Source: a bacterium
GTDB taxonomy: Bacteria > NPL-UPA2 > JAUVJM01
Length of the DNA: 8,302 nt
Assembly (NCBI GenBank): GCA_030606215.1
Contig: JAUWGW010000033.1
Coordinates: 1-8,302 of the forward strand
Direction of reading: 5' to 3'
A program made the translations under genes and the position numbers. This document shows, piece after piece, positions 1-5,966 of the stretch (position 1 is its first letter; every line of letters begins with the position of its first letter). The notes below the pieces were generated by a model, which had not been told where the DNA came from, made no database searches, and worked only from the letters and a program-made list of their open reading frames with translations.

Positions 1-309
1 AATGCCTAATTCCTTCAAGTCCTCATAGGCTCCTGCTCCTATTCTTCCGGCAATAACCACCTCGCAGTCTTTTACCACTTCTCCCATTTCCTTATGTCTC
101 TGGGAAGCTTTGGCAGTGAAACCATGAGTCCCTCTTTCATCTACCTGTGCATGTTCCTCTTCTGCCGAAAGCTGCTTGTGGCATGGCTTATCTCTCATTT
201 CTTCATTGGCTATCTTCTCTCCTTCCACTTCCGCCACAAAGAAATAAGGAGCAGTCCCAAAATGCTCACTAACGTTTACTTTATCAGTAGTAACTACAGC
301 AATCTTCAT
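1..309 (-). CDS. NifX/NifB-family (dinitrogenase Fe-Mo cofactor-binding type) protein, 3' end outside window
   Basis: The visible 103 residues start MKIAVVTTDKVNVSEHFGTA and match the Nitro_FeMo-Co fold (PF02579) shared by NifX, NafY, the NifB C-terminus and many small stand-alone proteins of anaerobes. Family signs are the opening beta strand with a conserved T, the SEHFGTAPYF segment at 13-22 and a VVIAGRIGAGAYEDLKELGI stretch near the cut. Known members bind iron-sulphur or iron-molybdenum clusters or their precursors; most stand-alone members have no known role, and nothing here shows nitrogen fixation. Possible ligands are the Cys-His pair at 42-43 and several other histidines (52, 61, 71). 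The start is fixed by a purine-rich AAGGGGGTG site about 8 bases upstream. The gene has its own promoter and sits 86 bases after a histidine-rich reading frame. The window edge removes the C-terminus. Family assignment is firm; function is open. Confidence 0.85.
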   Translation of the reverse strand, partial: MKIAVVTTDKVNVSEHFGTAPYFFVAEVEGEKIANEEMRDKPCHKQLSAEEEHAQVDERGTHGFTAKASQRHKEMGEVVKDCEVVIAGRIGAGAYEDLKELGI

Positions 310-358
310 CTTCTCAACACCCCCTTTCTGATTCCTCGTTTTAACTTCCAGCATTTGC

Positions 359-388
359 ATAATACCAACTTCAATGGTATCGTGTCAA
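359..388 (-). promoter_or_regulatory. Sigma70-type promoter for the NifX/NifB-like gene
   Basis: Read on the minus strand, a perfect -35 box TTGACA (383-388) is followed after 18 bases by TATTAT (359-364), one base from the -10 consensus. The predicted start of transcription, near 352, leaves a leader of roughly 43 bases before the ATG at 309. The promoter begins right after the stop codon of the upstream reading frame (396), so this gene can be transcribed separately from the cyclase. The call rests on sequence alone. Confidence 0.65.
362..380. promoter_or_regulatory. Inverted repeat overlapping promoter spacer and -10 box (operator candidate)
   Basis: The arms ATACCA and TGGTAT (362-367 and 375-380) are exact inverted copies separated by 7 bases. 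They fill most of the spacer and run into the -10 box. No T-tract follows on the minus strand, so it is not a simple terminator. The position fits a repressor operator or a start-site hairpin in the DNA; the cognate regulator is unknown and no regulator gene is in the window. Confidence 0.4.
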
Positions 389-395
389 TTTAAAC

Positions 396-614
396 TTATT
401 CCTCTTTCTTCAAATCATGCTCTGCTTCAATGTGATGCATATGACTTAGCACATCATGCAAATGATTATCCATATCCTGCACATGACTCCCTATCTCAGG
501 TGCAACTTTACACTCAGGGTGTTCTCTTAGATGAGACTCAAGATGCTCAATATCTGCATGAATATGTTCTAAGTCCTTCACCACGTGGTTTATATCTTCA
601 TACAACTTTCCCAT
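396..614 (-). CDS. Possible separate small histidine-rich helical protein, nested in frame at the end of the cyclase frame
   Basis: An ATG at 614 lies 6 bases after AAAGGAGGTG, a near-perfect anti-16S match, and opens a 72-residue product in the same frame as the cyclase. It is soluble and probably mostly helical, starting MGKLYEDINHVVKDLEHIHA. Thirteen of its 72 residues are histidine (10, 17, 19, 24, 28, 32, 44, 51, 53, 58, 60, 61, 66), with one cysteine at 35. Two helical halves rich in His, Asp and Glu flank an EHPECKVAPEIG turn, a composition that suggests metal binding or a helical hairpin. The next gene downstream is a NifX/NifB-family cofactor protein, which fits a metal theme. I do not recognise the family. 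It could be translated alone, only as the cyclase tail, or both ways. Confidence 0.6.
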   Translation of the reverse strand: MGKLYEDINHVVKDLEHIHADIEHLESHLREHPECKVAPEIGSHVQDMDNHLHDVLSHMHHIEAEHDLKKEE

Positions 615-1958
615 ATATTTCACCTCCTTTACGGCAAAATGGTAAACCCGGTTACGACCTGCTCCCTTAGCTTGATATAAAGCCTGGTCAGCTTGGAAGA
701 CAAGTTTCTGTTCGTCAGCAATATCTTCTGAATCCGGTTTCATAGTGGAAACTCCCAGGCTAACAGTTATTGTCAATTTCTTCCCTTTACAGGTATATTG
801 TTTCCCGGCTAATCTACCGCGAATCCGCTCCGCCAGAGTTAGCGCACCTTCAGAATCTGTCTCTGGCAAAATAACAATAAACTCCTCACCTCCATAACGA
901 GCGACAATATCTACTTCTCTGGTAAGATTTTTCAATAACCCCGCTACTTCCTTGAGTACTTCATCACCAAATTGATGACCATAGGTATCGTTAAAATTTT
1001 TGAAGTGGTCTATGTCAAGCATAATACAACTGAGCGGGAAACTATATCTTTTTGCCCGCCTGAATTCTGAATGCAGAAGTTTCTCAAAATGTCTGCGGTT
1101 GAAAATGTTTGTAAGAGGGTCCTTGATAGCTAATTCGTGCAATTTGCGCTTATCCTCTTCAATAACCTGTTTTGATTCTTCTAAGTTGACATTCTTCTTT
1201 TGTAAAATTGAGAGAAAAGAAACGAGACCGGATGTTATCATAAATCCCCAACCCCAGGTAAAAATTCTATCCCAGGGAAATTCTTCTTTTTCCTTTGGTG
1301 TGAGCTTTAAGACAAACGGTACTTGAGCTAAACCGAGATGAGCTTTGACTGTGTGCTGACTTTCTGAAAGTTCACCATTAACAAGGACTCCCTTTTCATA
1401 TGGGCCTGATACTTCTATAGAATATCTCGAAGACAGGCGTTTTATATGCGGGCGATTAAGAATTAAATCAGTATTTATCTCCACTAACAATACTTTGCCA
1501 GTCTGACCGATGGGGAGAATATGATATAGACCATTTTCCTTTTCAGAAATTTTCTCCATTGCTACATTTCCCATACCTTCCTTTTTTGCCTTCTCTACTA
1601 AAAACAAGACCTTTTTTGTCAGTTTCTTAGATTTCCCCTGGTTTGTCAGACAAGTAACTTTTGTTCCATTTATGACAAATAAATTCATTGGTTTAATCTG
1701 TTTCATTTTATTTTGTAGAAGCTTTGGCTGATTTGGAAGATTTGGAGCGGTTAACAAACCAGCGATGTCCTTTCCTCTTTGACACGATTTCCCGAATAAG
1801 TATTGGATATCTTCCCGTGCAATTTCCAGTTCCACATTATACCGCTTTTCTCTCTCTGCTCTCTTTTTTTTACAACGATTGATATCAGTAAGATAGGTAA
1901 TAAATAACCCTGCAATTATCAGGATTACCGGAGAATATTTAGAGAGTTTCTTGTTCAT
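396..1958 (-). CDS. Membrane diguanylate cyclase (GGDEF) with in-frame histidine-rich C-terminal extension
   Basis: This 520-residue protein should make cyclic-di-GMP from two GTP at the inner membrane. Helix 1 lies near residues 9-25, a probable periplasmic sensor region runs to about 230, helix 2 is near 233-252 and a short coiled linker follows. The GGDEF domain spans about 278-442: DPLTNIFNRRHF at 280-291, metal and substrate residues in LDIDHFKNFND (314-324), and the active-site GGEEF at 356-360. The inhibitory I-site REVD (347-350) lies five residues ahead of it, so product inhibition is likely. The sensor region matches no domain I can name. The domain would normally end near GRNRVYH (434-440), but the frame continues for 80 residues. 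The last 72 begin at Met449, which has its own strong ribosome binding site, so the extension may be a separate protein joined by loss of a stop. AGGTG 9 bases upstream supports the start at 1958. Confidence 0.9.
   Translation of the reverse strand: MNKKLSKYSPVILIIAGLFITYLTDINRCKKKRAEREKRYNVELEIAREDIQYLFGKSCQRGKDIAGLLTAPNLPNQPKLLQNKMKQIKPMNLFVINGTKVTCLTNQGKSKKLTKKVLFLVEKAKKEGMGNVAMEKISEKENGLYHILPIGQTGKVLLVEINTDLILNRPHIKRLSSRYSIEVSGPYEKGVLVNGELSESQHTVKAHLGLAQVPFVLKLTPKEKEEFPWDRIFTWGWGFMITSGLVSFLSILQKKNVNLEESKQVIEEDKRKLHELAIKDPLTNIFNRRHFEKLLHSEFRRAKRYSFPLSCIMLDIDHFKNFNDTYGHQFGDEVLKEVAGLLKNLTREVDIVARYGGEEFIVILPETDSEGALTLAERIRGRLAGKQYTCKGKKLTITVSLGVSTMKPDSEDIADEQKLVFQADQALYQAKGAGRNRVYHFAVKEVKYMGKLYEDINHVVKDLEHIHADIEHLESHLREHPECKVAPEIGSHVQDMDNHLHDVLSHMHHIEAEHDLKKEE
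621..630 (-). promoter_or_regulatory. Strong internal ribosome binding site inside the cyclase frame
   Basis: AAAGGAGGTG on the minus strand is followed by AAATAT and then ATG at 614. It is one of the strongest such sites in the window and stronger than the AGGTG site of the cyclase itself. Such a site inside a reading frame, at the natural end of the GGDEF domain, is the main evidence for a separate downstream start. Confidence 0.7.
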
Positions 1959-2002: not shown

Positions 2003-2033
2003 TCAAAGAAATAACTCACCAGTCGTGTCAATT
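2003..2033 (-). promoter_or_regulatory. Weak promoter candidate ahead of the cyclase gene
   Basis: A perfect TTGACA (2026-2031) overlaps the stop codon of the LamG pseudopilin, but no good -10 box sits at 16-18 bases; the nearest is TTGATA after 19 bases. The 11 bases AATTGACACGA (2023-2033) are identical to those around the -35 box of the NifX-like promoter (380-390). It may be a weak or activated promoter, or chance. Confidence 0.2.
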
Positions 2034-2957
2034 CACAGTAACAATAGGATACCCTGATGGTGCCCCCATATTGTAATGGTCTGCTACCTCACCTTGATCT
2101 AAGACGCGGTTGTAGACAATTACTTCATCAATTACAAAGGGAATATTTGGAGTAGTGGCATGACCTGCAAATATTTTCAAATTGGAATCATTCGGAAGAT
2201 TGCCACCGCATGATTTGCTTCCCCTGAATACTCCATTGAGATAAAATTTTAATGTACTTCCATCATAAGTAAAAGCCATATGGTTGTATCTATCCAGGAA
2301 GAGCTCGGCGTTCTCGTCAGGGTCATCTGAAAATAGGGTAGCAAAATGCACCTCTTCGTCGGCTTTCAGATATACATAAGCCATTGCTGTATCAGGACCG
2401 CTCATGTTCCAATAGCCCATATGCCAGCAACTACCGGCGTTAAAAACTATTGGGAATGTAGAGTTACTTTCAGCACCACATAGTCCACCTCCACAGACAT
2501 GTAGACCTGACATGACTTTCCCCCAGACCTCCGCAGATAATTTATTTGTAATACCAAAATCAGCCCACTTGCCACAGAAAAAATTAACAGTTCCTCCACC
2601 GGTGTTATTAACTTTAAGCACATAATAACCTTTAAATCGACTATCTTTAACCCATTTAATTCCTCTGTGATTGGTTGTTTCTCCAGAAGTTATTCTATCT
2701 CCCATATTCCCCCAATTTTTGGTTTTCAGTCCTCTTCCTTCTCCCAGTGTCCAGTGCCCTACTTTTCCTACATTTTTGGTGAGGCAACCAGCCATGCATG
2801 AACCATATTTCACAGTTATCCTTGCCTGCGTTCTTGCTCGTTGTAGCGCCGGAAGAAGCATTGCCGCCAGTAGTCCAATTATGGCTATGACGACCAGCAA
2901 CTCAATAAGCGTAAAACTTTTCTTTCCACCTAATTTAAAACCAGAGCACTTTCGCAT
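2028..2957 (-). CDS. Pseudopilin fused to a LamG / concanavalin A-like lectin domain
   Basis: This 309-residue protein joins a type II secretion/type IV pilin N-terminus to a LamG_3-type jelly roll. A basic leader (MRKCSGFKLGGKKS) precedes [13 protein letters not shown] at 15-27, with the pilin Glu at +5 (E19); the helix continues to about residue 50. A prepilin peptidase would cut between S14 and F15, and Ser rather than the usual Gly occupies -1. The C-terminal domain shows the LamG pattern: HMAFTYDGSTLKFYLNG at 226-242 and FVIDEVIVYNRVLDQGEVAD at 274-293. LamG domains usually bind sugars or other surface ligands. Seven cysteines lie in the mature part, including C154 and C160, so disulphides are possible. 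It is probably a minor pilin or tip protein exposing the lectin domain. The start is supported by GGAGG 7 bases upstream. It lies 39 bases after DUF4198, and its leader is copied from, or shared with, the pilin gene at 4213-5040. Confidence 0.85.
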   Translation of the reverse strand: MRKCSGFKLGGKKSFTLIELLVVIAIIGLLAAMLLPALQRARTQARITVKYGSCMAGCLTKNVGKVGHWTLGEGRGLKTKNWGNMGDRITSGETTNHRGIKWVKDSRFKGYYVLKVNNTGGGTVNFFCGKWADFGITNKLSAEVWGKVMSGLHVCGGGLCGAESNSTFPIVFNAGSCWHMGYWNMSGPDTAMAYVYLKADEEVHFATLFSDDPDENAELFLDRYNHMAFTYDGSTLKFYLNGVFRGSKSCGGNLPNDSNLKIFAGHATTPNIPFVIDEVIVYNRVLDQGEVADHYNMGAPSGYPIVTVN

Positions 2958-3000
2958 TTTCCCATCCTCCTTTTACGGGTCGGATAAATCCGACCTCTAC
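2951..3000 (-). repeat. REP-like GTAG hairpin within a duplicated pilin leader, copy 1
   Basis: The hairpin GGTCGGAT-TT-ATCCGACC (2978-2995) is preceded on the minus strand by GTAG (2997-3000), the layout of bacterial REP elements. Bases 2951-2995, from the hairpin through the ribosome binding site into the first codons of the LamG pilin, are identical over 45 bases to 5034-5078. The TAG of this GTAG is the stop codon of the DUF4198 gene. The hairpin lies just upstream of the ribosome binding site and may affect translation or protect mRNA ends. Confidence 0.75.
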
Positions 3001-3806
3001 GGCACTTCAAAAGTCAAAGTTGCTGTATAGTGCAGTTGATTACATTTATCTTTTAATTCTTCTGAAGCAGGTAACCTCATTTCTGCCTTTATTAGCCATG
3101 GACCATAATGAATGAGCCTTATTTTCGCTTTGCCTTCTGCATTGGTAGAGGTGGCATAGGCAAATTCTTCTCTTGTAGAAAATCCACTGTAGGTTGCTTT
3201 CACTCCACAGAATTTTGCCGGTTTACCTCTAAATAAAACCTGGATGGGTAGAAAGTCTCCATTTTTGAGAGTAGCAGGATTTTTCAAAGTAATTATCTCA
3301 AGATTATGACCAACTGGTTTTGAAAAGAGATTACCAGAAACCTCTCCTGCATTTATCAAACTCTTTGCATACTGTTCGTAGTAAAGGCTCAAGATAATGC
3401 CTTTAAGTCCGGTCTTTGGTCCCATTTTGTGATGCGTCTTCCCCTTTTCCGTGTACATCGTATAGAAACCGGGTTTTAGAGTAGCAGTGATTATATATGT
3501 TCCTTGTTTTTTGAAGTTTAGTTGTGTGGCTAAGAACCCAGCCTCACCAAGATCAATTTTTCCCTTATCACCGTTAGATGAAATCATGGAACAGCTTTCT
3601 AAATCCTCCTCAGTCAGAAAATCGTCTACCGGATAGTGATGTCCCCAGCCAAAATAAATTTTGGTTGCTGCCCCATGCCTCGGGTGAACTTTCGGAGAAT
3701 AGTCAGTGGCATTTATCCACATTGCGTGGGCATAAACAGATACCGGCAAATACGCACAAAATCCTAGAACCAAAAACATTCCCCAAAATCTTCTAATCTT
3801 TCTCAT
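2997..3806 (-). CDS. Secreted DUF4198 protein, probable periplasmic metal-binding protein
   Basis: This 269-residue protein has a Sec signal peptide (basic start, hydrophobic 9-21) with a cleavage motif VYA at 24-26. The mature chain would begin His27-Ala-Met-Trp. It fits DUF4198 (PF10670), a beta-sandwich family found beside nickel, cobalt and other metal uptake genes and sometimes annotated as NikM-like. Family features are GWGHHYPVDDF at 53-63, PVGHNLEII at 164-172, a mid-chain RGKPAKFCGV segment (193-202) and the closing YTATLTFEV strand at 260-268. H56, H57, H125, H126 and the predicted N-terminal H27 are candidate ligands. No transporter gene is in the window, so the metal and partner are unknown; the pseudopilins around it are the only clear context. 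GGGAGG 10 bases upstream supports the start. The stop codon lies inside a REP-like repeat, so the original C-terminus may have differed slightly. Confidence 0.82.
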   Translation of the reverse strand: MRKIRRFWGMFLVLGFCAYLPVSVYAHAMWINATDYSPKVHPRHGAATKIYFGWGHHYPVDDFLTEEDLESCSMISSNGDKGKIDLGEAGFLATQLNFKKQGTYIITATLKPGFYTMYTEKGKTHHKMGPKTGLKGIILSLYYEQYAKSLINAGEVSGNLFSKPVGHNLEIITLKNPATLKNGDFLPIQVLFRGKPAKFCGVKATYSGFSTREEFAYATSTNAEGKAKIRLIHYGPWLIKAEMRLPASEELKDKCNQLHYTATLTFEVP

Positions 3807-4212: not shown

Positions 4213-5040
4213 TCACGGTCGTATCCAGCCATCCCATTCATTGGGTTCGTAGACACCCCATGCTGGAGCAATCCCACCGCTACCTGGCAGGGCTGTCCAT
4301 GCAGTATCCATCATTTCTGTGGCACTTACCCATGCCACATGACCGTCCATATAAGCGATATTCAGCCCACCGTTGTGTGGTGCTGTGTACTTCATCCATG
4401 TCGGATCTGTAAGTTCGCCTTCCATCGCGGAACGAATAGTGCCTCCAAGAAAACAGCTGCCCTCATCGGTATAAAAGCCCATTGGGTCTTTATGTTCATA
4501 GAGAAAAATTTCCTGCGATGGCATCCTGACGTGCCCGAGTTTCCGGCCGCGGGCATGTGGAAGCCATGGACCCTGGCAACTAAAATTGATGGCATAGCCT
4601 GAACCAAAGATTTGGTGCGCGTCTGCACCAAGTGCTTCCCATTTATTCTTCTCAAACAAATGTTTACGAGTTGGGCATTGGAAAATATCTATCTTCTCAA
4701 CAGGTGGTAAAGAGCCAAACATATCTATGCCATTGTAGAGGTAGGGCATCAAAAACCACCAAAAGCTTGAGGCTGACTGAATCAGGGCATAACCCTCATT
4801 ATATGGGTCACTGACTTTGCCGCCAATTAGATGCTCATTGTAGGTGTCCCAGTACATCATACTCGCCGTGCCAAGCTGCTTGAGGTTGTTGAGACAGGAA
4901 ATTCGTTTTGCCATCTCCCTGGCTTTGGATAAAGCAGGTAATAGCATTGATGCCAGTATAGAAATAATTCCGATGACAACTAACAACTCAATCAGCGTAA
5001 AACTTCCCTCTCTGGACTTAAACCCAGAATGCATTCGCAT
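4213..5040 (-). CDS. H-x9-DG type pseudopilin
   Basis: This 275-residue protein carries [13 protein letters not shown] at 14-26 with Glu18 at +5 of the predicted cut, and an N-terminal helix ending in [18 protein letters not shown]. It continues into C49-LNNLKQLG, a typical PVC-group pilin start. The C-terminal part holds the prepilin processing-associated motif: H222, nine residues, then D232-G233-H234 within [16 protein letters not shown]. Cysteines 49, 122, 155 and 196 may form disulphides. Such proteins are cut by a prepilin peptidase and assembled by type II secretion or pilus-like machines; none of that machinery is in the window. Residue -1 is Ser, not Gly. GGAGG 7 bases upstream fixes the start. 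It probably heads the unit with the 100-residue protein, DUF4198 and the LamG pilin. Its specific role is unknown. Confidence 0.88.
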
Positions 5041-5263: not shown

Positions 5264-5869
5264 CTATTCTGCTCTTACTGTAGGATGGTTTGTGCCTGTA
5301 ACCCCACCTTGAGGCCATTCCGATTGCGGCAGCCATTTTATGTGCATCTCCGTATAAAGGACATTACCACCGGCTCCTTTATGATTGCCTCCTCCAGAGT
5401 TTCCGCCATCATAATCCCACATTAAGGAAGTGGATTCGAACATACCGCCAAAAAATATAACAGTTTTCTTAAATGGACGCGCTTCCTTTTGATACGAATA
5501 ACTATTAATCGTATCAACGCCAGATTTAGACACAACTACCGTTATAGTTGTAGGATTAACAGTTTTATCCGATGGGCAGCAAAGAAGCTGTGGTGTTTTA
5601 ATATATCCATTTAGAATCCCGTTACTAACATCAGCCTTAAAATAATCACCATCAGGCGGATATGCATCCCACTCATCAGCATACATGGTTAGTGCATGTT
5701 TAAGCTGATGCAGATTTGATATGCAGACAGCCCTTCGTCCCATCTCCCTTGCTTGACTTAAAGCAGGCAACAACATTGCTGCCAGCAGACTAATAATAGC
5801 TATGACGACGAGCAATTCTATCAGCGTAAAACTTCTTTCCCCTAATTTAAAACCAGAGTGCATTCGCAT
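5264..5869 (-). CDS. Pseudopilin with degenerate H-x9-DG end
   Basis: This 201-residue protein shares its start with its neighbours: [10 protein letters not shown], then [13 protein letters not shown] at 14-26 with Glu18 at +5, AAMLLPAL, and C49[20 protein letters not shown]. The C-terminal region [18 protein letters not shown] (162-179) aligns with the usual H-x9-DGHVxW motif, but the Asp-Gly pair is replaced by Glu-Met and one extra residue follows the His. The motif is therefore altered, not absent. Cysteines 97 and 98 are adjacent. The frame stays open upstream to a TTG at 5941, but AGGAGG 7 bases before the ATG at 5869, and the shared MRMHSGFK start, show that 5869 is correct. It is probably a secreted pilin-like subunit of unknown role. 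Confidence 0.85.
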
Positions 5870-5921
5870 TTTTCGTCCTCCTGTTACATTGTAGCCGCAT
5901 AGCATGTTCATCTTTACTAAC

Positions 5922-5933
5922 ACTACTACTACT
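5922..5933. repeat. Short trinucleotide repeat, four ACT units
   Basis: Four tandem ACT units (AGT on the minus strand) lie in the leader of the pilin gene about 50 bases upstream of its ATG. Slippage could change leader length, though four units is short for a phase-variable tract. Confidence 0.5.
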
Positions 5934-5966
5934 ATTGGCAAAGTTCCGCTCTACAGCTACACTTTT

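Follow-up and report, generated by a model that had tools for sequence, protein, structure and literature searches.

The diguanylate cyclase DgcZ is regulated by zinc and carries an N-terminal CZB domain with a three-histidine, one-cysteine (3His/1Cys) site (PMC8262984). Cas11d is a small protein with its own start within the 3' part of cas10d, in frame with the larger gene (PMC10212523). A third relevant arrangement is that of coupled operon genes, where the Shine-Dalgarno (SD) sequence of the downstream gene overlaps the upstream stop codon. The locus described here bears a partial resemblance to each. Like DgcZ-type CZB-GGDEF proteins, it joins a GGDEF cyclase to a helical, histidine-containing segment that could bind metal. 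However, the CZB domain of those proteins is N-terminal, whereas the segment found here is C-terminal and has no CZB match. As in cas10d, translation of a small protein would begin internally, towards the 3' end of a longer gene and in its frame, but the segment is not homologous to Cas11d, it is known from one sequence, and the nested product is predicted. The placing of a strong SD and ATG right where the upstream gene finishes is shared with coupled operon genes (56 such sites in our genome sample). In contrast to these, no in-frame stop separates the two parts as assembled, and the nearby TAA is one base out of frame; the upstream stop at the SD or ATG that marks an ordinary coupled pair is thus absent from the assembled sequence.

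We analyzed the whole 8,302-nucleotide stretch (the window), which is a contig of 8.3 kb in all. The features relevant to the locus are the following.

396 to 1958, minus strand: single open frame of 520 amino acids, diguanylate cyclase plus His-rich tail (open reading frame and profile matches).
648 to 1127, minus strand: GGDEF domain, residues 278-437 (Pfam PF00990, E 1.3e-49).
Within the GGDEF domain, minus strand: GGEEF active-site signature, residues 356-360, and RxxD inhibitory-site motif REVD, residues 347-350 (read from the sequence).
636 to 639, minus strand: TTTT run, in which the loss of one base would make the cyclase end YHLP-TAA (read from the sequence).
629 to 631, minus strand: out-of-frame TAA (+1 frame) abutting AGGAGG (read from the sequence).
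620 to 630, minus strand: Shine-Dalgarno sequence AAAGGAGGTGA, an 11-nt match to the anti-SD, longest among the 20,144 ATGs of a 616-kb sample of the same genome.
396 to 614, minus strand: His-rich tail or small protein, 72 amino acids with 13 His, predicted helical hairpin (helices 3-31 and 39-71).
359 to 388, minus strand: sigma-70-like promoter of the next gene, TTGACA-18-TATTAT (11 of 12 consensus positions, TG before the -10).
1 to 309, minus strand: Nitro_FeMo-Co domain protein gene, cut by the contig end, a separate transcription unit (PF02579, E 9e-12).

The first-pass annotation described a GGDEF cyclase that runs in phase through the SD and the ATG at 614 into a 72-residue product with 13 histidines. 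We find exactly this arrangement, as one frame of 520 codons from 1958 to 396 on the minus strand, and the histidine count is correct. The minus strand from 641 to 612 reads CATTTTGCCGTAAAGGAGGTGAAATATATG, with the tail ATG at 614-612. The junction codons past the GGDEF domain are CAT TTT GCC GTA AAG GAG GTG AAA TAT ATG, followed by 71 more. One T fewer in the TTTT run does give the YHLP-TAA end that had been proposed; the run had been placed at 639-642 and lies at 639-636.

The strength of the internal ribosome binding site was judged against the organism's own genome. Every ATG on both strands of a 616-kb sample (GC 42%) was scored by its longest match to AGAAAGGAGGTGATCC at the proper distance; the standard anti-SD sequence served as reference, and the 16S 3' end is absent from the sample. 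The tail start is the only one of the 20,144 ATGs with an 11-nt match, so the perfect ribosome site claimed for it is not a product of chance. Next come four ATGs with matches of 10 nt, three of which precede open reading frames of 66-272 amino acids. We also compared coupled and internal starts outside the window, requiring a match of at least 6 nt and at least 60 downstream codons. ATGs that overlap the last part of an upstream frame (n = 56) have matches of up to 9 nt, and those inside open frames (n = 39) of at most 8 nt. Potential RNA structure masking the tail SD shows no excess over shuffled sequences (z -0.45). The locus shows two of the features of a nested gene, a strong ribosome site and an in-frame start inside a longer open frame.

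The SD-like sequence could be a by-product of the K-E-V codons in a protein that is made only in the fused form. The codons AAG GAG GTG specify residues that are common, the peptide KEVK is unremarkable, and chance produces a few AGGAGG-ATG sites within genes: a properly spaced AGGAGG precedes an in-frame internal ATG seven times in the 132,810 codons of the 616-kb sample (about 1 per 19,000), the tail site included. However, an 11-nt match is unequalled in the sample and falls exactly at the domain boundary, and we consider a fused product alone improbable.

The point at which GGDEF proteins normally end also bears on the junction. The cyclase matches NCBIfam TIGR00254 over residues 274-440 (E 3e-57), and the Pfam and TIGR00254 profile bounds put the end of the domain at residues 437-440. 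Among 35 other GGDEF domains, taken from the same genome and from genomes of different phyla, 31 lie in frames that end within 31 residues of the position equivalent to residue 440, and the three other GGDEF proteins of this genome stop at +1, +2 and +3. The present frame continues for 80 residues. An extension of similar length (75 residues, different sequence) occurs in one of the 35, L005. One apparent split homologue, G007, in which the match to our query extended to residue 505 across a single TAA, was rejected, as its sequence past the GGDEF stop does not convincingly resemble the tail.

These end points are pertinent to the possibility that the locus consists of two ordinary adjacent genes, with a cyclase ending ...NRVYHLP-stop, and that the fusion results from a one-base indel near the TTTT run, either an assembly error or a recent mutation. 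With one base fewer, the cyclase would end two residues past its domain, as its paralogues do at +1 to +3. The TAA at 631-629 would then overlap the SD, its T at -17 from the ATG, within the stop-start distances of coupled genes in this genome. The layout produced by removing one base had been called a common operon layout, and it does match the operons of this genome. However, a run of four Ts is not a homopolymer prone to error in short reads, and chance alone can readily place a stop in one or other of the remaining frames close to an AT-rich SD. We give the indel slightly less than an even chance. It is compatible with a separate start for the tail.

The same slightly-below-even chance applies to a true dual-product gene, in which a His-rich segment is fused to the C-terminus of the cyclase and initiation at the internal start yields it as a free protein as well, one gene being nested in another. 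Taken at face value, the assembled sequence reads this way. There is precedent both for in-frame C-terminal products from internal starts, in Cas11d within cas10d (PMC10212523), and for diguanylate cyclases inhibited by zinc, in DgcZ (PMC8262984). However, the fusion is not kept in any relative, the extension in L005 is the sole one of similar length among the other GGDEF domains, and no known metal-sensor family matches the tail. The choice between a true dual product and a one-base indel is about even. Both explanations offered by the first-pass annotation, a dual product and a stop lost by frameshift, thus survive, and the separate tail start is supported.

The tail is highly unusual in composition. 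Across 11,480 windows of 72 amino acids from long open reading frames of the same genome, histidines average 1.3 and never exceed 8, against 13 in the 72 residues of the tail. Codon use in the tail is genome-typical, at the 63rd percentile among windows of the genome, and the other two frames score lower. Alone, it is predicted to form a two-helix hairpin (pLDDT 81); in an AlphaFold model of the fused form the tail is helical too, in what is a poor model (pLDDT 56). The histidines of helix 1 lie on one side, off the hydrophobic face (helical moment 0.58), and the pattern is weaker in helix 2 (0.24). The placement in helix 1 resembles a surface metal site. We infer that the tail probably binds a metal, such as zinc, nickel or copper.

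No family in Pfam or NCBIfam matches the tail, and sequence and fold searches of the PDB returned nothing meaningful. The CZB zinc domain (PF13682), with its 3His/1Cys core, has no match in the protein at E values up to 0.1, nor anywhere in the genome at E values up to 10 in a search that detected its controls. The metal-sensing role given to the tail in the earlier description is conjectural, as the tail resembles no known metal-binding family, CZB included. Relatives of the tail were found in none of 386 genomes of various related ranks, the phylum of genome G123, viral contigs, plasmids or GTDB contigs; hits in these collections were low-complexity or antisense chance matches. A Beijerinckia hit (L032) lies on the antisense strand of a large open reading frame, and the frames hit in L013, L014, L018 and L017, which scored best among the genomes, are unrelated. 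No tail homologue that could show conservation of its start was thus found in the searched collections. The locus as a whole, cyclase plus tail, occurs in none of the other genomes of the phylum (nine-genome set), and no orthologues of the cyclase sensor region were found in the eight other genomes.

The cyclase itself belongs with the GGDEF diguanylate cyclases by its PF00990 domain and GGEEF signature. A hydrophobic segment at its N-terminus is followed by approximately 200 residues with no assigned family and a second hydrophobic segment at about 233-252 (by eye); the region between the two is presumably extracytoplasmic. The enzyme is probably of the membrane type, active and product-inhibited, the latter two because both the GGEEF signature and the RxxD motif are present.

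Directly behind the tail stop, a consensus scan identified the sequence TTGACA-18-TATTAT, heading for the Nitro_FeMo-Co gene. This is a consensus match only, in a region that overall has no more such sites than shuffled sequences. The cyclase transcription unit probably closes with the tail, which would belong to the cyclase transcript because the next gene's promoter sits right behind its stop. An imperfect dyad at 353-389 (minus strand) overlaps this promoter, with 15-nt arms that are 73% complementary and a core, ATACCA-7-TGGTAT, between the -35 and -10; it is possibly an operator of the kind bound by spacer-binding regulators. The sequence AATTGACACGA is found at 380-390 and 2023-2033 (minus strand), upstream of the Nitro_FeMo-Co gene and of the cyclase, perhaps as a shared -35 region. 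No riboswitch or other Rfam RNA was identified within the window.

The Nitro_FeMo-Co protein has no relative in other members of the phylum at E 1e-6. A relative with 50% identity is present in the distant genome G123 (L034, 1405-1803), and horizontal transfer of the gene is possible. The neighbors of that relative include no small His-rich open reading frame. Three proteins encoded elsewhere in the window (2028-2957, 4213-5040 and 5264-5941, minus strand) share a near-identical prepilin-like N-terminus (HSGFK...), and the first continues into what appears by eye to be a concanavalin-like domain. A DUF4198 protein is encoded at 2997-3806 (minus strand; E 2e-39). This family often accompanies nickel or cobalt uptake, and the gene possibly provides a metal context for the His-rich protein.

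We conclude that 396-614 is probably a translation unit of its own, with the fusion either a lesser product or an artefact that a one-base indel has created. Independent translation of the small His-rich protein is likely. Four observations together give good support to a separate start: its SD heads the genome ranking, it coincides with the domain boundary, GGDEF proteins usually terminate near this point, and codon use in the tail is genome-typical. A two-helix, His-rich protein of 72 residues would be translated from an SD of its own, on the mRNA whose upstream part encodes a membrane-bound c-di-GMP synthase. Since the frame has no stop as assembled, ribosomes finishing the GGDEF domain would also make the cyclase-tail fusion. 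The cyclase's own ribosome site, GCAGGTGTAGATTAAAATG, is weak as read from the sequence and the internal one is very strong; therefore free tail should predominate among the products of each mRNA. The two products, metal binding and any effect on the cyclase are all inferred. A more elaborate scheme, in which the cyclase carries a C-terminal, non-CZB metal-binding hairpin that is also freed via the internal start and that, as a free tail, buffers metal or competes with its fused counterpart, tuning the cyclase, seems unlikely.

If the dual product is real, the organism would possess a c-di-GMP enzyme whose metal-binding tail is built in and also produced as a protein in its own right, and metal status would be tied to second-messenger signaling via internal initiation. 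If it is not, the locus would be an ordinary two-gene operon, in which annotation would hide an orphan His-rich protein inside a cyclase.
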